Below are positions 29,769 through 47,471 of a stretch of 64,000 bases of DNA, piece by piece. A program made the translations under genes and the position numbers. Positions within the stretch are counted from its first letter, which is position 1. Every line of letters starts with the position of its first letter. The notes beneath the pieces were generated by a model. That model saw only the letters and a list, made by a program, of their open reading frames with translations. It ran no database searches and had not been told where the DNA came from. Where the stretch lies: the NCBI RefSeq assembly GCF_000754095.2, contig NZ_JQSG02000003.1:175397-239396 (forward strand). Direction: 5' to 3'. This stretch comes from Acidihalobacter prosperus (GTDB lineage: Bacteria > Pseudomonadota > Gammaproteobacteria > DSM-5130 > Acidihalobacteraceae).

Positions 29769-30615
29769 TCAACATCTCCCGATAGATGGCTCGATCGTCG
29801 CTCAACGCCCCTCGCCAGCCGCACACGCGGGCGGCGAAACCGGCCGCGCGCCGCAGCAATGCCGGCCACTCCCAGCCTTCGATCAGGCCCAGCAGGACCA
29901 CCGCGCTGAAGGCGTCCCCCGCGCCCACGGCATCGACCAGACGGTCGACGGGCGGCGGCGTCACGCGATGCAGGCATGCCTGCCCATCATACACATCCGC
30001 CCCCTCGGCCCCACGCGTGAGGATCACGCGCGACACCCGTCGCTCGCGCGCCAGGCGAGCCGCATCGCCGTCCTCGACCAGGCGGGCGGCCTCGTCCTCG
30101 TTGAGCTTGAGCCAGGCCACGTCGCCGGCCAGCGGCCACAGGGTGTCCGGCGACCACCAAGGATCGCGCAGGTTGACGTCCATGAACACGCGCCCGGCGA
30201 ACGCCGCGCGCAAACCGACCAGGGTGGCCCGCGAAACCTCGCTGCGGGCGGCCAGGCTGCCGTGGTAAAACAGGCTGTCGTCGCAGGCACCCAGCGCATC
30301 CGGCGGCAGAATGTAGTCGTAGGCCTGTGCCGACAATATGTCGTAGCTCGGCTGGCCGTTTTCCAACACGACCGACACCCGCCCCGTGGGATGCGCGTCG
30401 TCCGTCTCGACCCAGCGCGTGTCCAGCCCCCAGTCGCGCATGCGCGCGAGCACCTCCTCGCCCAGGGCGTCGCGGCCGATGCGGCTGACGAAGCGCGGCG
30501 ACAGGCCGAAACCCTGAAGATGCCAGGCGACGTTGAAGGGCGCGCCGCCGAGCACGCAATCCTCGCCGAAACAATCGAAAAGCACTTCGCCCATGATCAC
30601 GGGAAAACGGTCCAT
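29740..30615 (-). CDS. scrK: fructokinase (PfkB family)
   Basis: A 291-residue ribokinase-family sugar kinase that phosphorylates fructose released by sucrose synthase. The N-terminal GGAPFNVAWHLQGFG (near residue 23) is the sugar-binding block. The C-terminal DAVGAGDAFSAVVL (near 228) holds the catalytic Asp and anion hole. It is first in the sucrose gene set and its stop overlaps the start of sucrose-phosphate synthase. Together the three genes could both build and recycle sucrose. Confidence 0.9.
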   Translation of the reverse strand: MDRFPVIMGEVLFDCFGEDCVLGGAPFNVAWHLQGFGLSPRFVSRIGRDALGEEVLARMRDWGLDTRWVETDDAHPTGRVSVVLENGQPSYDILSAQAYDYILPPDALGACDDSLFYHGSLAARSEVSRATLVGLRAAFAGRVFMDVNLRDPWWSPDTLWPLAGDVAWLKLNEDEAARLVEDGDAARLARERRVSRVILTRGAEGADVYDGQACLHRVTPPPVDRLVDAVGAGDAFSAVVLLGLIEGWEWPALLRRAAGFAARVCGWRGALSDDRAIYREMLSEWRGRTNG

Positions 30616-37007: not shown

Positions 37008-37640
37008 ATGCATAAGCGCTATCAGAACACGCGGTTTCTCACCAGCGCGACCAGTCTCCGGGGAATGCCGCCGGACATCGGCCGCGAAGCGGCCTTCGCC
37101 GGTCGGTCCAACGCGGGCAAGTCGAGCGCGCTCAACCGCATTTGCCATCAGAAATCGCTGGCGCGCACGAGCAAGACGCCGGGCCGCACCCAGCAAATCA
37201 ATTTTTTCACCGTAACGGACGACCGCTACCTCGTCGACTTGCCCGGTTATGGCTACGCGCGCGTGGCCAAATCGCAGCAACAGCAGTGGGGCGCGCTGTT
37301 GCGCCAGTACCTGCTCGGCCGGCGCTCGCTGGCCGGCCTGATACTGCTCATGGATATCCGGCACCCGCTGACGCCGCTCGACGGGCAACTCCTCGATCTC
37401 TGCCAGGAGGGCGGGGTTCCGGTGCATGTCCTGCTCACGAAGGCGGACAAGCTCAAGCGGGGTCCGGCCATGGCAACGCTGCGCACTGTCGAACGCCAGC
37501 TCGACCGGGAAGGTCTCGACGCCAGCGTACAGCTGTTTTCGTCGCTCAACGGGGAAGGCCTGGAAGCGGCGCAGGCGCGATTGGACGACTGGCTCGCCTT
37601 CGACGCCGACGTTTCTGATTCAGGGCCAATAGCGCTGTAG
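37008..37640 (+). CDS. engB: ribosome biogenesis GTPase EngB/YihA
   Basis: A 210-residue P-loop GTPase needed for 50S subunit assembly. Motifs: G1 GRSNAGKSSALN near residue 30, the G2 threonine in TPGRTQQINFF, G3 DLPGYG near 78, and G4 TKADKL near 143. It lies near polA, the arrangement seen around spf (Spot 42) in enterobacteria. It ends convergently with, and overlaps by 21 bases, the next gene on the other strand. Confidence 0.95.
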   Translation: MHKRYQNTRFLTSATSLRGMPPDIGREAAFAGRSNAGKSSALNRICHQKSLARTSKTPGRTQQINFFTVTDDRYLVDLPGYGYARVAKSQQQQWGALLRQYLLGRRSLAGLILLMDIRHPLTPLDGQLLDLCQEGGVPVHVLLTKADKLKRGPAMATLRTVERQLDREGLDASVQLFSSLNGEGLEAAQARLDDWLAFDADVSDSGPIAL

Positions 37641-39259: not shown

Positions 39260-39394
39260 GGAGGGATACCGCTGACGCATCGGGGAAAAGGCCGTCGTTT
39301 TAACACAAATCGCCCCCCGGCATAAGGCGTGCTGCACACAGCCACGCCTTACGGGTTACCCTATGACGCTTGCCAGGTCACCCGAATCGAAGCC

Positions 39395-42094
39395 ATGTCC
39401 CAAGCGCCTCTCGTCCTCGTCGACGGCTCCTCCTATCTTTACCGCGCCTTCCATGCGCTACCACCGCTGACCAGCCCGTCGGGCGCGCCCACCGGCGCGA
39501 TCTACGGTGTCGCCAACATGCTGCGCCGGCTGCTGAAGGACTACGATCCCACGCATCTGGCCGTGGTCTTCGACGCCAAGGGCAAGACCTTCCGCGACGA
39601 ACTCTACCCCGATTACAAGGCGCATCGTCCGCCGATGCCGGAGGACCTTGCCGCACAGATCGAGCCGCTGCACGCGCTGCTGCGCGCCATGGGCCTGCCC
39701 ATCCTGATCGAGGAGGGCGTGGAGGCCGACGACGTCATCGGCGCGCTCGCGCGCCGCGCCGCCGAACGCGGCGAACAGGTGGTAATCTCGTCCGGCGACA
39801 AGGACCTTGCGCAACTCGTCGACGGCCACGTCACCCTGGTCAACACCATGAGCGGGACCGTGCTCGACCGCGCCGGCGTGATCGAGAAATTCGGCGTACC
39901 GCCAGAGCGCATCATCGACTATCTCGCACTGATCGGCGACAACGTGGACAACGTCCCCGGCGTGGAAAAGTGCGGCCCGAAGACCGCGGTCAAGTGGCTG
40001 AACGCCTATGGCACGCTGGACGGCGTCATCGCCCATGCCGACGAGATCAAGGGCAAGATCGGCGAGAACCTGCGCCGCGCACTGGACGCTCTACCCCGCT
40101 CGCGCGAGCTGGTCACCCTGCGTACCGACCTCGATCTGGACTACCGCCCGCAGACCCTCGAACTGGGCACGCCGGATACCGACGCACTGCGGACGCAGTT
40201 GCGCGAGCTCGGCTTCACCACCTGGCTGCGCGAGCTGACGCCCGACGCATCCGCTACGGATGAGGACAAACCGCCGGCGAAGACCGCCGCGCGCTACGAA
40301 ACCTTGCTCGACGAACCCGCACTGACATGCTGGGTCGAACGCCTGGAGGCCGCCGAGCTGTTCGCCTTCGATACCGAGACCACCAGCCTCGACTACATGC
40401 AGGCACGCGTGGTCGGCCTGTCATTCGCGGTCCAGCCGGGCGAAGCCGCCTACCTGCCGCTCGCGCACGACTATCCCGGTGCGCCCGAGCAACTCGACCG
40501 CGAACGCACGCTGGCGCGTCTCAAGCCGCTGCTGGAAGACCCTGCGCGGGCCAAGGTCGGCCATCACCTCAAATACGACCGCAACGTGCTGCTGCATCAC
40601 GGCATCACGCTGGAAGGCATCCGGCACGACACCATGCTCGAATCCTACATCCTCGATTCGACGGCCACCCGGCACGATCTCGACACCCTCTGCCAGGCCC
40701 ATCTCGACCACGTCAACATTGCCTACGAGGATGTCGCAGGCAGGGGCGCCAAGCAGATCCCGTTCAGCGCGGTGGCGATCGAGGACGCCACTCCTTATGC
40801 CGCCGAGGACGCCGATATGACGCTCTCGCTGCATGAGACGTTCTGGCCGCGGCTCAGTCAGACCGAAGGTCAGCGCCGGGTCTACGAGGACATCGAGGTG
40901 CCGCTGGTGCGCGTGCTCTCGCGCATGGAGTGGAACGGCGTCAGGGTCGATGCGGACCAGCTGCGCGCGCAGAGCGCGGCGCTGGCGGCGCAGATGAGCA
41001 CGCTCGAACGCGAGGCGCGCGAAATCGCCGGCAGCGCCTTCAATCTCGGCTCGCCCAAGCAGATACAGGAAATCCTCTACGACCGGCTCAAGCTGCCGGT
41101 GATCCGCAAGACGCCCAAGGGCCAGCCTTCGACGGCCGAGGATGTGCTTGAAGAGCTCGCCCTGCAGCACGAGCTGCCGCGCGTAATCCTGGAACACCGC
41201 ACGCTCGCCAAGCTCAAATCGACCTACACCGACCGCCTGCCCGAACGGGTCGATCCCGACACCGGGCGCGTGCATACCTCCTATCACCAGGCGGTCGCCT
41301 CCACCGGGCGGCTGTCGTCCTCCGACCCCAATCTGCAGAACATCCCCGTGCGCACCGAGGCCGGGCGGCGTATCCGCCAGGCCTTCGTGGCATCACCTGG
41401 GCATGTGCTGCTGGCCGCGGACTACTCGCAGATCGAGCTGCGCATCATGGCGCACCTGTCCGGCGACGAAGGCCTGCGACGCGCCTTCGCCGCGGGCGAG
41501 GACATCCATCGCGCCACCGCCGCCGAGGTCTTCGGCGTGACGCGCGAGGCCGTCGACGCCGACCAGCGGCGCGCGGCCAAGGCGATCAATTTCGGCCTGA
41601 TCTATGGCATGTCCGCCTTCGGTCTTGGCAAACAGCTCGGCATCGGCCGCAACGAGGCCCAGGCCTATGTCGACCGTTATTTCGAACGCTATCCCGGCGT
41701 GCGGGAGTACATGGAATCGACCCGCAAGCTGGCCGCCGAGAAGGGCTACGTCGAGACCCTCTTCGGCCGCCGGCTGCATTTGCCGGAAATCAACTCGCGC
41801 AACGGGCAGCGGCGCGCCCAGGCCGAGCGCGTCGCCATCAATGCGCCGATGCAGGGCACCGCGGCCGACATCATCAAGCGCGCCATGCTGGCGGTCGACG
41901 GCTGGATCGAGCGTGAGGCGGAGGATATTCGCCTGATCATGCAGGTGCACGACGAACTCGTGCTCGAACTACCGGAATCGCAGATCGAAACGGCGCGTGC
42001 CGCCGTGCGCGCGCGCATGGAAGGTGCGGCTTCGCTGGACGTCCCGCTGGTGGTCGATATCGGCATCGGCACGGATTGGAACGCCGCCCATTAG
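39395..42094 (+). CDS. polA: DNA polymerase I
   Basis: An 899-residue enzyme with three domains. The 5'-3' flap nuclease covers residues 1-290 (LVDGSSYLYRAFHALPPL at the start, GDNVDNVPGV near 190). The 3'-5' exonuclease-like domain covers 320-510 and retains FDTETTSL and the YAAEDAD motif, so proofreading looks intact. The polymerase covers 520-899, with motif A DYSQIELRIMAHLSGD near 680, motif B RRAAKAINFGLIYGMSAFG near 725 and motif C MQVHDELVLE near 850. The ATG at 39395 was chosen from alignment with the usual N-terminus. The small RNA array starts 70 bases after the stop. Confidence 0.97.
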   Translation: MSQAPLVLVDGSSYLYRAFHALPPLTSPSGAPTGAIYGVANMLRRLLKDYDPTHLAVVFDAKGKTFRDELYPDYKAHRPPMPEDLAAQIEPLHALLRAMGLPILIEEGVEADDVIGALARRAAERGEQVVISSGDKDLAQLVDGHVTLVNTMSGTVLDRAGVIEKFGVPPERIIDYLALIGDNVDNVPGVEKCGPKTAVKWLNAYGTLDGVIAHADEIKGKIGENLRRALDALPRSRELVTLRTDLDLDYRPQTLELGTPDTDALRTQLRELGFTTWLRELTPDASATDEDKPPAKTAARYETLLDEPALTCWVERLEAAELFAFDTETTSLDYMQARVVGLSFAVQPGEAAYLPLAHDYPGAPEQLDRERTLARLKPLLEDPARAKVGHHLKYDRNVLLHHGITLEGIRHDTMLESYILDSTATRHDLDTLCQAHLDHVNIAYEDVAGRGAKQIPFSAVAIEDATPYAAEDADMTLSLHETFWPRLSQTEGQRRVYEDIEVPLVRVLSRMEWNGVRVDADQLRAQSAALAAQMSTLEREAREIAGSAFNLGSPKQIQEILYDRLKLPVIRKTPKGQPSTAEDVLEELALQHELPRVILEHRTLAKLKSTYTDRLPERVDPDTGRVHTSYHQAVASTGRLSSSDPNLQNIPVRTEAGRRIRQAFVASPGHVLLAADYSQIELRIMAHLSGDEGLRRAFAAGEDIHRATAAEVFGVTREAVDADQRRAAKAINFGLIYGMSAFGLGKQLGIGRNEAQAYVDRYFERYPGVREYMESTRKLAAEKGYVETLFGRRLHLPEINSRNGQRRAQAERVAINAPMQGTAADIIKRAMLAVDGWIEREAEDIRLIMQVHDELVLELPESQIETARAAVRARMEGAASLDVPLVVDIGIGTDWNAAH

Positions 42095-42131: not shown

Positions 42132-42158
42132 GAACTCCTGCGCTCCGGCCCGATCAAA
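42132..42158 (+). promoter_or_regulatory. sigma-E-like promoter of small RNA unit 1
   Basis: GAACTC (42132-42137), a 16-base spacer and TCAAA (42154-42158). The -35/-10 spacing and the 11-base distance from the -10 start to the first hairpin are shared by all five units. GAACTT with TCnnA is the extracytoplasmic (RpoE/AlgU) pattern. Confidence 0.5.
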
Positions 42159-42164
42159 GTCTGC

Positions 42165-42268
42165 AAGCGCTTAGCCCGGCGCTCCCGCCGTCTCCCTGGC
42201 GGGCTCGACTTGTCTCCCCCTTCAAGTCGATGATTTTTTGCCCCGGCCTCGTGCCGGGGTTTTCTTTT
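42165..42268 (+). ncRNA. small RNA array unit 1 (polA-adjacent, C-rich loops)
   Basis: This is the most diverged of five tandem units. Hairpin 1 (AGCGC/GCGCT) has the conserved loop TTAGCCC. Hairpin 2 (CCCGCC/GGCGGG) has the loop GTCTCCCT. Hairpin 3 (TCGACTTG/CAAGTCGA, 42205-42230) displays TCTCCCCCTT. The terminator is CCCCGGC/GCCGGGG followed by TTTTCTTTT. C-rich loops on stable stems are typical of trans-acting RNAs that pair with ribosome-binding sites. The position after polA is that of Spot 42, ErsA and sX13 in other gammaproteobacteria, from memory. No ORF of note lies inside. Confidence 0.85.
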
Positions 42269-42301
42269 CCGCCCCCAACTCACCTCATCTCCGCGACGAC
42301 G

Positions 42302-42328
42302 AAACTTTCGTCTGCGATGGCGGTCAGA
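42302..42328 (+). promoter_or_regulatory. sigma-E-like promoter of small RNA unit 2
   Basis: AAACTT (within GAAACTT), a 16-base spacer, then TCAGA preceded by GG. Spacing is identical to the other units although the spacer sequence differs. Confidence 0.55.
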
Positions 42329-42334
42329 ATGTGT

Positions 42335-42436
42335 GAGTGCTTAGCCCGTACTCACCCGCCGCAAGGCGGGTACGACTTGTCTCCCCCCCTTCAAGTCGAT
42401 GCGACTGCCCCGGCCTCGTGCCGGGGCTTCTTTTTT
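42335..42436 (+). ncRNA. small RNA array unit 2
   Basis: Hairpin 1 is GAGTGC/GTACTC instead of GAGCGC/GCGCTC. The fourth pair changed from C-G to T-A, and the next became a G-U wobble, so pairing is kept by covariation. Hairpin 2 (ACCCGCC/GGCGGGT) is closed by a GCAA tetraloop. Hairpin 3 (CGACTTG/CAAGTCG) displays TCTCCCCCCCTT. The terminator GCCCCGGC/GCCGGGGC is followed by TTCTTTTTT. Confidence 0.88.
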
Positions 42437-42467
42437 CAGCCCCCCATGCGCACTCGCCCGACCCACG

Positions 42468-42494
42468 AAACTTTCCTGGCGCCGCGCAGTCCCA
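42468..42494 (+). promoter_or_regulatory. sigma-E-like promoter of small RNA unit 3
   Basis: AAACTT (within GAAACTT) and TCCCA at the conserved spacing. The -10 is the poorest match of the five, so this unit may be weakly expressed. Confidence 0.4.
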
Positions 42495-42500
42495 GTTTAT

Positions 42501-42603
42501 GAGCGCTTAGCCCGGCGCTCCTCACCGATCACCGGTGGGTACGACTTGTCTCCCCCCTTCAAGTCGATGCTGATGCCCCGGCCCTGCGCCGGGGCTTTTT
42601 TTT
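42501..42603 (+). ncRNA. small RNA array unit 3
   Basis: Hairpin 1 is GAGCGC/GCGCTC with loop TTAGCCCG. Hairpin 2 has changed completely (CTCACCG/CGGTGGG, loop ATCAC) yet still pairs. Hairpin 3 keeps its sequence, with TCTCCCCCCTT in the loop. The terminator GCCCCGGC/GCCGGGGC ends in eight T. Hairpin 2 is thus conserved in shape, hairpin 3 in sequence. Confidence 0.88.
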
Positions 42604-42620
42604 GCCCGCGCGCGGCGCGT

Positions 42621-42647
42621 GAACTTTTTCGTCATCCCTCGGTCATA
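42621..42647 (+). promoter_or_regulatory. sigma-E-like promoter of small RNA unit 4
   Basis: GAACTT, 16-base spacer, TCATA preceded by GG. This is a very good match to the extracytoplasmic sigma-E consensus. Confidence 0.6.
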
Positions 42648-42653
42648 GATAAC

Positions 42654-42754
42654 GAGCGCTTAGCCCGGCGCTCGCCGCCGCAAGGCGGATCGACTTGTCT
42701 CCCCCCCTTCAAGTCGAATTGCATGGCCCCGGCCTCGCGCCGGGGCTTTTTTTT
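42654..42754 (+). ncRNA. small RNA array unit 4
   Basis: Hairpin 1 is GAGCGC/GCGCTC, hairpin 2 is CCGCC-GCAA-GGCGG, hairpin 3 is CGACTTG/CAAGTCG with loop TCTCCCCCCCTT, and the terminator is GCCCCGGC/GCCGGGGC with eight T. Together with its promoter it is nearly identical to unit 5, which suggests recent duplication of a segment of about 151 bases. Confidence 0.9.
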
Positions 42755-42771
42755 GCCCGCGCGCGTCGCGT

Positions 42772-42798
42772 GAACTTTTTCGTCATCCCCCGGTCATA
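42772..42798 (+). promoter_or_regulatory. sigma-E-like promoter of small RNA unit 5
   Basis: GAACTT, 16-base spacer, TCATA preceded by GG. It differs from the unit 4 promoter at very few positions. Confidence 0.6.
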
Positions 42799-42804
42799 GG
42801 TAAC

Positions 42805-42905
42805 GAGCGCTTAGCCCGGCGCTCGCCGCCGCAAGGCGGATCGACTTGTCTCCCCCCCTTCAAGTCGAATTGCATGGCCCCGGCCTCGCGCCGGGGCTTT
42901 TTTTT
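42805..42905 (+). ncRNA. small RNA array unit 5
   Basis: Same layout as unit 4: GAGCGC/GCGCTC, GCAA-capped hairpin 2, C-rich hairpin 3 with seven C, terminator with eight T. It ends 77 bases before the ABC permease gene, so read-through into that gene is blocked. Confidence 0.9.
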
Positions 42906-42982: not shown

Positions 42983-44185
42983 ATGCCCGCCATCAGCCGT
43001 CAACTGATCCGCCTGCGCGTCGCCTGCTATACGCGTTCCACCGCGCAGCTGACAAGCCGACACTGGCAGTGGTTCGCGCTCGCCCTGCTGCTCGCCCCTG
43101 CCGGCATCCCGATCGGCGCCTTACTGCGCGCCCTGGCCTACCCGCTGGATGCGCTGTTCGCCGCCGGCCATGGTTTAAGCTGGTATTTCGTCTACCTGCT
43201 GACAACCCAGGCGCTTGCGCTGGCCTGGGTGCTGCCGCAACGGAGACCGATTCTCGGTGGCGCGTTCATGCGCTACGCCGACGCCCTCCCCATCCCCCGA
43301 TCGGCGCGGCTTGCGGCCGATCTTGCGCTGCTGCTGCTCGCCGACAGCCTGCTGCTCGGCCTGCTCGCAAACGGTATCGTCGTCTCGGCATTCGCCCGGG
43401 CCGAGCCGACCGCGCTCGGCATCGTCTCGCTGCTCGCCCTGCTGGTACTGACCCTGGGCTTCCAGCTCACCGCGCTTGACCGCCGCTGGGCGCGGCTGCC
43501 GCTGCTGGCCCTGGCCGACAGCCTGTTCGCGGTCTCCCTGAGCACCCCGTCGTCCCATCATGCCTGGGCCGCGCTGGGCGCCGCGCTGGCCACCGGACTG
43601 GCTGCGTTGCGCCTGCGCGGGCACCCATCGTCCGCCATGCGGCGGACCGGCACGCAGCGCGCGTCCGGCATCCGCGCATGGCTACCGTCCTTCGTCGGCA
43701 TCCAGTACGACATACTGAAGGCGCGGCCGGGTGCAACGTCGCTGCGTCTGGGGCTTGCCGCCATACTCGCCGCCGCGACCGTCCGCGCAGGTTTTTTCTT
43801 CGAATACGACGGACGCGTGCTGCCGTTGACGATCCTCGCGCTGGCCGGCATCGCACTCGTCCTGAGCGGTTTCTACAGAACCCTGCGCGCCGCGCACGCG
43901 CCCATGCACGCGTATCTGGCCGCTCTGCCGACGGGTCGACGGTACTGGCCGCTGCGCGACCTGCTCTTTGTGCTGATACTCGGGATCGCGCCGCTGATCC
44001 CGCTGTTGCCGCCGCTGGGACGCCACTTCCCTGCCACCGCATGGGCCGGGCTGGCACTCGCCTACCTGTCGCTGCTCGCGGCGCTGCGCCTGCCGCTGGC
44101 GATCGCCGGCAGACAGACCGCCCTGGCCGCATTGCTGCTTGCCGGTATCTGGTCCGGTATCGCGATGGCGGCAGTCGCGCGATGA
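42983..44185 (+). CDS. ABC-type exporter membrane subunit (inferred)
   Basis: A 400-residue, very hydrophobic protein with about ten predicted membrane helices (for example 27-50, 60-80, 110-135, 145-165, 255-290, 320-345 and 350-395). I recognise no motif in the protein itself. Its stop overlaps by four bases the start of an ABC ATPase, so it is most likely the permease of a two-gene exporter. Loop lengths and the paired ATPase resemble ABC-2 type exporters. Substrate unknown. Confidence 0.6.
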   Translation: MPAISRQLIRLRVACYTRSTAQLTSRHWQWFALALLLAPAGIPIGALLRALAYPLDALFAAGHGLSWYFVYLLTTQALALAWVLPQRRPILGGAFMRYADALPIPRSARLAADLALLLLADSLLLGLLANGIVVSAFARAEPTALGIVSLLALLVLTLGFQLTALDRRWARLPLLALADSLFAVSLSTPSSHHAWAALGAALATGLAALRLRGHPSSAMRRTGTQRASGIRAWLPSFVGIQYDILKARPGATSLRLGLAAILAAATVRAGFFFEYDGRVLPLTILALAGIALVLSGFYRTLRAAHAPMHAYLAALPTGRRYWPLRDLLFVLILGIAPLIPLLPPLGRHFPATAWAGLALAYLSLLAALRLPLAIAGRQTALAALLLAGIWSGIAMAAVAR

Positions 44186-44823
44186 ACGCCCCGGCGTCGC
44201 TGACCGCGCAAGACCTGCGCAGGACCTATGGCGGACGTGAAGTGCTGCGTGGCGCAAGCCTGGCGCTGGCAGCGGGCGTATACGCGCTGCGGGGTCCGAA
44301 CGGCATCGGCAAATCGACCCTGCTGGCCGCACTGGCGGGCGCCGTCCCGCTCGAGGCCGGCGAGGTCCGTATCGACGGCATCAGCCTCGCCTCGGCACCC
44401 TTGGCGGCAAAACGGCGGTTGGGCTACGCCCCCGATGAGAGTCCGGTCTATCCCTTCGTCAGCGGCCGCACGCTGCTGGAGTTCGTTGCCGCGACCAAAG
44501 GCGTGCGCCTCGGCGAGGCCGACCGCGAAACATTGCGCGCGCTGGCGCTGGAGACCCGGACGGAAATCCGCTTTTCGGCCCAGTCGCTCGGCATGCAGAA
44601 GAAATTCCTGCTGGCCGCCGCCTGGATCGGCGCCCCCAGGGTCCTGTTGCTGGACGAACCCAGCAACGGCCTGGATGCATCGGCCCGGGATTATCTGTGC
44701 AAACGCTTCGCCGCCGAGCGCGAACGATGCGTGATCCTGTTCACGACCCACGACAGCCGTTTTGCGGAACGAGCCGGGGCGGCCTCGATCGAGATGGAAA
44801 CGCTGTTCGCGGACGCGCGCTGA
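44182..44823 (+). CDS. ABC transporter ATP-binding protein
   Basis: A 213-residue ATPase. Walker A is GPNGIGKSTLLAAL (near residue 37), Walker B is PRVLLLDEPSNGLD (near 155) and the switch His lies in FTTHDS. The signature loop reads QSLGMQKKFLLAAAW rather than LSGGQ, a divergence common in exporters of the CcmA/ABC-2 group. Coupled by ATGA overlap to the upstream membrane protein, it should energise that exporter. It is convergent with the cardiolipin synthase gene. Confidence 0.9.
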   Translation: MNAPASLTAQDLRRTYGGREVLRGASLALAAGVYALRGPNGIGKSTLLAALAGAVPLEAGEVRIDGISLASAPLAAKRRLGYAPDESPVYPFVSGRTLLEFVAATKGVRLGEADRETLRALALETRTEIRFSAQSLGMQKKFLLAAAWIGAPRVLLLDEPSNGLDASARDYLCKRFAAERERCVILFTTHDSRFAERAGAASIEMETLFADAR

Positions 44824-46428: not shown

Positions 46429-46956
46429 ATGATCAAACGTCTCTGGATGGCACTACCCGCATTGTTGCTGGGCGGTTGCGCCGTCAACCCCGTTTCCCCC
46501 CCCGGCCCCTATGCCGCGCTGACGCCCGAGATGGCGGCTGCCGGCACCGCCACCGGCAGCCGCGTGCGCTGGGGCGGCATCATCGTGAGCACCCATCCCG
46601 AGACCACGCGCACCTGTTTCGAGGTGCTCGGCCTGCCGCTGGACGGTGAAGGCGAGCCCCGTCTGGAGCGCACGCACAGCGTGGGACGCTTCATCGCCTG
46701 CTCACCCGGCTTCTACGACCCGGCACTCTATGCCAAGGGACGCGAGATTACCGTGGCCGGCGACATCGTCAAGGTCGAAACCCGCCGCATCGGCGAATAT
46801 GCGTACCGCTTCCCGGTCATCGAGGCCGGTGCGCCGCACCTGTGGCCCAAGCCTCGCCCCGTACGCTACGTCCCCGGCCCCTGCTGGAACGACCCTTTCT
46901 GCAGCCCCTGGGGCTGGCCCGGCCCGTATCCCTATTACTCGCCCTGGTGGCGCTGA
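46429..46956 (+). CDS. Slp-family outer membrane lipoprotein
   Basis: A 175-residue lipoprotein with signal peptide and lipobox LLGGC (Cys near residue 17). The Slp core follows: RWGGIIVSTHPETTRTCFEVLGLPLD, then FIACSPGFYDPALYAKGREITVAG. Slp is an outer-membrane lipoprotein induced by starvation and acid in E. coli. The C-terminus is rich in Pro, Trp and Tyr, unlike the paralogue that follows. Its stop overlaps that paralogue's start. Confidence 0.85.
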   Translation: MIKRLWMALPALLLGGCAVNPVSPPGPYAALTPEMAAAGTATGSRVRWGGIIVSTHPETTRTCFEVLGLPLDGEGEPRLERTHSVGRFIACSPGFYDPALYAKGREITVAGDIVKVETRRIGEYAYRFPVIEAGAPHLWPKPRPVRYVPGPCWNDPFCSPWGWPGPYPYYSPWWR

Positions 46957-47471
46957 TGAACGCAGGCAATCGCTTTCTCCTCGGTCTGGCCATGACCGGC
47001 GTGCTGGCGCTCGCGGGCTGCGCCACCACCCCGCCGTTTGCGCCCGCGCTTGCCCAGCAGGCGCAAACCGCGCCTGCTCCCCAGGCGGTGGCACGCAACG
47101 CGCGTGCGCCGGCGACGCCGATGGCCTGGGGCGGCACCATCGTAAAGGTCGACAACGAGGCCCACGACACCCTGATCACCGTGCTCGCCTACCCGCTGGA
47201 TGATGCCTTGCGGCCGAAACTGCGCGACAGCACCATCGGACGCTTCATCGTGCGGGCCCGCGGCTTCGTCGAACCGCTGATCTATGCGCCCGGCCGCGAG
47301 CTGTCAGTGATCGGCCCGGTCACCGGCTTCCGGCAGGGCGAGATCGGTCAGCAGCCCTATCAGTATCCGGTGGTCAGCGAGCAGGCCATGCACCTCTGGC
47401 CGCTGGCGCCCGAGCCCTCCACGCCGCGCTTCCAGTTCGGCATCGGCATCGGCATCGGCTCGCGTTTCTAA
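46956..47471 (+). CDS. Slp-family outer membrane lipoprotein (tandem paralogue)
   Basis: A 171-residue lipoprotein with lipobox LALAGC near residue 19 and the Slp blocks MAWGGTIVKVDNEAHDTLI, LAYPLD, RFIVRARGFVEPLIYAPGREL and VIGPVTG. It ends in a Gly-Ile repeat (FGIGIGIGSRF). The ATG overlaps the upstream stop (TGATG), so it is coupled. The two share the WGG-to-APGRE core but diverge in both tails, a duplication with separate evolution. It is convergent with uvrD. Confidence 0.85.
   Translation: MNAGNRFLLGLAMTGVLALAGCATTPPFAPALAQQAQTAPAPQAVARNARAPATPMAWGGTIVKVDNEAHDTLITVLAYPLDDALRPKLRDSTIGRFIVRARGFVEPLIYAPGRELSVIGPVTGFRQGEIGQQPYQYPVVSEQAMHLWPLAPEPSTPRFQFGIGIGIGSRF

Follow-up and report, generated by a model that had tools for sequence, protein, structure and literature searches.

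The five-copy array of putative small RNA (sRNA) genes 3' of the DNA polymerase I gene polA in Acidihalobacter prosperus has its closest described counterparts in ErsA of Pseudomonas and sX13 of the Xanthomonadaceae. ErsA likewise follows polA and has a sigma-22/E promoter of the GGAACT type, several hairpins that carry C-rich loops, and a terminator; it is sigma-22-dependent, acts on algC, oprD and amrZ (PMC7565897, PMC5819304) and is a single-copy gene in the records, compared with five copies here. sX13, also encoded after polA and also single copy, is about 115 nt long and has three C-rich-loop stems that act on G-rich motifs near start codons, while the accessible part of the report, whose authors asked in 2013 whether polA loci elsewhere also encode sRNAs, does not mention a sigma-E promoter for it (PMC3771888). 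A third RNA of unknown function, anti-hemB or Burkholderia RNA 7 (RF02837), has hairpins 2 and 3 and the terminator in common with the array, but its Rfam model is without hairpin 1 and its name points to another neighbour.

With respect to copy number, the CcsR1-4 RNAs of Rhodobacter, which possess CU-rich loops, resemble the array as four homologous sRNAs under the control of a stress sigma factor. They are, however, cut from one precursor common with ccaF1 (PMC8307010), and since each unit of the array has its own promoter-like element and terminator, CcsR-like processing from a single precursor is unlikely. The five LhrC RNAs of Listeria (LhrC1-5) are alike in copy number, in regulation by envelope stress and in the blocking of Shine-Dalgarno sequences (PMC5880928), but belong to the Firmicutes, are controlled by the two-component system LisRK and are unrelated in sequence and locus. 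Sibling sRNAs, several highly similar sRNA genes per genome, are a known theme (PMC4211561), and the five units fit that description.

The window, the whole 64,000-nt stretch of A. prosperus DNA that was analysed, contains polA at 39329..42094 (+) as a 921-aa open reading frame (ORF) of uncertain start codon, the product of which is 57-66% identical to the polA products of 80 named genomes, with Sedimenticola and Ectothiorhodospiraceae MAGs the closest at about 66%. About 70 nt after its stop codon start five tandem units of ~104 nt apiece (42165-42905, +), spaced 170, 166, 153 and 151 nt from start to start. All five fold into hairpin 1 (stem GAGCGC/GCGCUC, loop UUAGCCC), hairpin 2, the C-rich hairpin 3 (CGACUUG-UCUCCCCC(CC)UU-CAAGUCG) and a GC-rich terminator with a T run; terminator-like sites number 12 where 2.5 are expected. 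Sequence, repeat analysis and folding hereby bear out both the five structured units and the order of their elements as given by an earlier sequence-only reading. That reading had also placed the units at the polA site of Spot 42, ErsA and sX13 with engB nearby. The linkage to polA stands, as does the positional kinship with ErsA and sX13, while Spot 42 drops out, as no Rfam match to it was found in the array at any E up to 5. Spot 42 and ErsA have engB downstream; here, the engB-like gene (37008-37640) lies upstream of polA, separated from it by two genes.

The units are not identical. Unit 1 (42165..42268), the form closest to the wider family described below, has the loops UUAGCCC, CUCCC and UCUCCCCC, and its C-rich hairpin 2 loop (GUCUCCCUG) is not present in the other units. 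The hairpin 2 loop is GCAA in unit 2 (42335..42436) and unit 4 (42654..42754), hairpin 2 is re-paired using different sequence in unit 3 (42501..42603), and unit 5 (42805..42905) is a recent duplicate of unit 4 with 97% identity over 151 nt. Invariant throughout is the C-rich loop of hairpin 3, the proposed target-pairing site, located at 42206..42229 in unit 1 and at 42373-42398, 42542-42566, 42691-42716 and 42842-42867 in units 2-5; the exact pattern occurs five times genome-wide, every time inside the array.

The structure is maintained by purifying selection. Folding z-scores of the five units range from -4.5 to -6.0, and for each unit none of 200 shuffles was equally stable. In hairpin 1 of unit 2 (GAGUGC/GUACUC) a C-G pair is swapped for U-A, and hairpin 2 of unit 3 keeps its pairing with altered sequence; upon alignment, both of these earlier covariation claims proved correct. 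Among 27 aligned family members, two-sided changes affect 16 of 26 pairs and 93.9% of cells are paired, compared with 26-51% when partners are slid, with none of 500 shuffles matching either the pairing or the two-sided changes. Moreover, identity of the unit 1 and 2 RNAs to their counterparts is 95-98% in sister species G001 and 89-96% in a second sister species, G002. As the polA 3' end is only 78% and the spacer about 37% identical in the comparison that gives 95-98% for the RNAs, the comparison indicates that selection acts on the unit RNA itself. Folding, covariation and the family model together uphold the structured-sRNA reading.

At curated Rfam thresholds the array gives no match, and its RNA is formally outside the ErsA, sX13 and anti-hemB families. 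The nearest family is anti-hemB, against which the units score 32-40 bits (E 8e-8 to 1e-5; best unit 40.3 bits, E 8e-8) and so stay below the threshold of 49.5, which seven relatives exceed (L115, L116, L120, L122, L195, L196 and L199). No match of the array to the ErsA model (RF01719, Pseudomon-1) was found, either at the gathering threshold or with E-values as high as 5, with four named polA loci matching as controls, and against the sX13 model (RF02232) the array reaches at most 15.6 bits of the required 50.

A covariance model from 16 units (R1) found significant matches in other families, mostly beside polA and with the four-hairpin plan. Its broadened version from 27 sequences (R2) matched 165 of 369 genomes of Gammaproteobacteria with E-values of 0.001 or lower, although covariance-model E-values are rough and weak matches may include chance ones; a model seeded with the five units is therefore not confined to this genome, and its matches are concentrated after polA. 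Among 80 named polA loci, two of which with matches had been in the training set, R2 gave 25 matches: 23 on the coding strand no more than ~450 nt 3' of polA, one 1.6 kb downstream and one directly after polA on the opposite strand. In the 86 genomes with both entries among the matches listed, the RNA lies within 1.5 kb downstream of polA on the same strand in 49 and on the other strand in 6, and elsewhere or on another contig in 31. These matches point to polA-adjacent relatives of the unit RNA across Gammaproteobacteria that are mostly uncatalogued. In one relative (L120 2042-2126, -), a c-di-GMP-I riboswitch is found near the polA-linked sRNA.

The wider family touches the three named ones, with R2 scoring 14.6 and 24.3 bits on ErsA loci one unit of the genus g168 scoring 48.3 bits against sX13 (threshold 50) and another g168 unit 37.1 bits against ErsA, whereby common constraint on C-rich loops and terminators may have inflated such cross-scores, those to anti-hemB included. 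This contact suggests common descent of ErsA, sX13, anti-hemB and the array RNA, and anti-hemB seems to belong to a far larger family, mostly linked to polA, for which its name may mislead. Of wider significance than the array itself is this sRNA family at polA, which has been under-recognised and which bridges the three. The most far-reaching version, for and against which we find the case evenly balanced, is an ancestral sigma-E-controlled C-rich-loop sRNA at polA in Gammaproteobacteria and Burkholderiales, of which ErsA, sX13 and anti-hemB would be named branches and which would have been repeatedly amplified into independently promoted sibling arrays, here of five, as a main output of RpoE.

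Missed by the sequence-only reading was what appears to be a separate sigma-E-type promoter for each unit. The sigma-E/AlgU consensus is GAAMYT and GGTCWNA with a gap of ~15 nt, and the units are preceded by GAACTT-N14/15-GGTCWNA or a variant that ends 6-7 nt before hairpin 1. Close to consensus are the putative promoters of unit 2 (42301..42328, GAAACTT...GGTCAGA), unit 4 (42621..42647) and unit 5 (42772..42798; both GAACTT...GGTCATA), whereas those of unit 1 (42132..42158, GAACTC...GATCAAA, a variant conserved in two sister species) and unit 3 (42467..42494, GAAACTT...GTCCCA, the weakest of the five) depart from it. The 3.36 Mb genome contains the broad motif GAAMYT-N14-17-GGTCWNA at three sites, which lie 5' of units 2, 4 and 5, and sister species G001 contains it at ten, four of them 5' of units. 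In the 80 polA loci, a similar motif is present 16 times within 300 nt 3' of polA versus three times in the other 1.48 Mb of strand, a ~340-fold higher density according to a test that was devised after the motif had been seen in the window, on independent sequences. The strict motif precedes 15 of 24 model matches compared with 0.45% of random 80-mers, the remaining matches having mostly near-misses.

The genome encodes Hfq and one RpoE ortholog, and the genes that come after rpoE encode RseA_N and MucB_RseB domains. On this background, the array probably encodes sibling trans-acting sRNAs that are induced by RpoE and block G-rich translation starts with C-rich loops, resembling ErsA and sX13. 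Each unit would be transcribed on its own, from a sigma-E (RpoE/AlgU)-type promoter to an intrinsic terminator. Envelope damage would free RpoE from RseA and each unit would give rise to a ~105-nt RNA in which three hairpins are followed by a terminator stem and a U tail, possibly assisted by Hfq. The hairpin 3 loops (UCUCCCCC.. in all units) and CUCCC of unit 1 hairpin 2 would pair with G-rich Shine-Dalgarno regions of target mRNAs, whereupon translation would be blocked and less of envelope or other burdensome proteins be synthesized, a role proposed by analogy to sX13, ErsA and LhrC. Tandem copies would allow a fast increase in dose and provide room for divergence, as may be seen in the loss of the C-rich hairpin 2 loop in most copies and the different -10 element retained by unit 1.

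Recognition of the motif by the host RpoE rests on analogy, because no unit-type promoter was found within 300-420 nt 5' of rpoE itself. Together with two to four additional ECF-like sigma genes in the genome and the variant -10 element at unit 1, this absence speaks for C-rich-loop sibling sRNAs transcribed by another ECF sigma factor or from a housekeeping promoter in response to a signal other than envelope stress. We nevertheless consider this unlikely, as the motif fits the sigma-E consensus and is common to many families at the polA locus, and the stretch yielded no promoter of the sigma-70 type. HtrA/DegP-type proteases are classic sigma-E targets, and in relative G004 (L238 12185-12290) a sigma-E-type motif is located 105 nt 5' of such a protease gene.

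Another explanation is that the C-rich loops mainly serve to soak up or decoy mRNAs, an RNA-binding protein or other sRNAs, with copy number determining the titration capacity. The presence of many almost identical copies that keep one loop invariant would suit this, as would C-rich loops that are structured and lack a long single-stranded seed. As the similarly formed sX13 and LhrC pair at ribosome-binding sites (PMC3771888, PMC5880928), and as separate promoters and the divergence of hairpin 2 point to genes that are regulated individually, we regard this explanation as improbable. A reading of the units as repeat elements or as serial polA terminators without function in trans, which tandem spacing, a strong terminator per unit and the recent duplication of units 4 and 5 might suggest, is very hard to reconcile with selection and covariation in all four hairpins, one promoter per unit, single-copy orthologs across the class and copies dispersed away from polA in G002 and G004; covariation, promoters and single-copy orthologs likewise rule out a simple repeat or CRISPR-like array.

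For the favoured translation-blocking sRNAs, a minimal search for a crude target pattern, an exact GGGGGAGA ahead of ATG, yielded 8-9 sites in each genome, compared with 2-5 when the pattern was reversed, but no conserved gene that convinces as a target; the sole GGGGGAGA site common to two species precedes putative short ORFs of 49-51 codons and was rejected. All three species of the genus carry a conserved upstream ORF of 12 codons (M-D-x-x-x-N-P-x-E-G-x-x) that runs into the rpoE start codon (TGATG); it lies ~20-80 nt 5' of rpoE in L159 (G000:C1) and is also present in L158 and L157. Its ribosome site is the G-rich AGGAGGGGGACATGG, complementary to the C-rich loop, with a predicted pairing to loop 3 of -19 to -21 kcal/mol in two species that 1-2 of 41 window gene starts equal or better. 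Translational coupling or sRNA feedback at the rpoE leader is possible, but only a lead, because the ORF is absent in G003 and G004 and the background of 41 gene starts is tiny.

Copy number after polA varies among the relatives. Five units follow polA in G001, three in G002 with one more 7.5 kb away, and one in G003, while G004 has two dispersed units. As the sister species with five copies is assembled as a single contig, the five-copy array is not an assembly artefact. Units 1 and 2 are orthologous across three species of the genus, and the comparison indicates that units 3-5 multiplied later, partly separately per species. With model R2, by our own count, 19 of the 165 genomes with matches have at least two and only the genus of Acidihalobacter and genus g168 (G174, G281) at least four. 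In g168 (L202, L203), four tandem copies lie 3' of polA, each with its own GGAAC..GTCT-type promoter-like element and terminator. Because g168 belongs to another family, and the stems and spacing of its array differ, amplification probably occurred at least twice. The earlier impression that a five-copy array is unusual holds insofar as five is the maximum of the 1-5 copies found after polA in relatives, with no more than five in any of the 165 genomes, but is qualified by the equal number in G001 and the four copies in g168.

The present data answer the polA-locus question raised for sX13 with a broad yes and add to it a common envelope-stress-type promoter and a link between three separately named families. 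The arrays represent natural experiments on the multiplication of sRNA genes, in which dose can be set against division of labour, the latter by way of the changing hairpin 2 and the distinct unit 1 promoter. A covariance model extending Rfam anti-hemB would annotate the polA-linked RNA in many genomes.

Elsewhere in the window, ARAGORN reports an 84-nt tRNA-Ala(ggc) at 30005-30088 without Rfam support, probably a false positive. The 3' flank of the array is a 400-aa membrane-protein ORF (42983-44185) that matched no Pfam family and adjoins an ABC ATPase gene (44161-44820), and two adjacent paralogous genes for Slp-family outer-membrane lipoproteins are located at 46429-47471.
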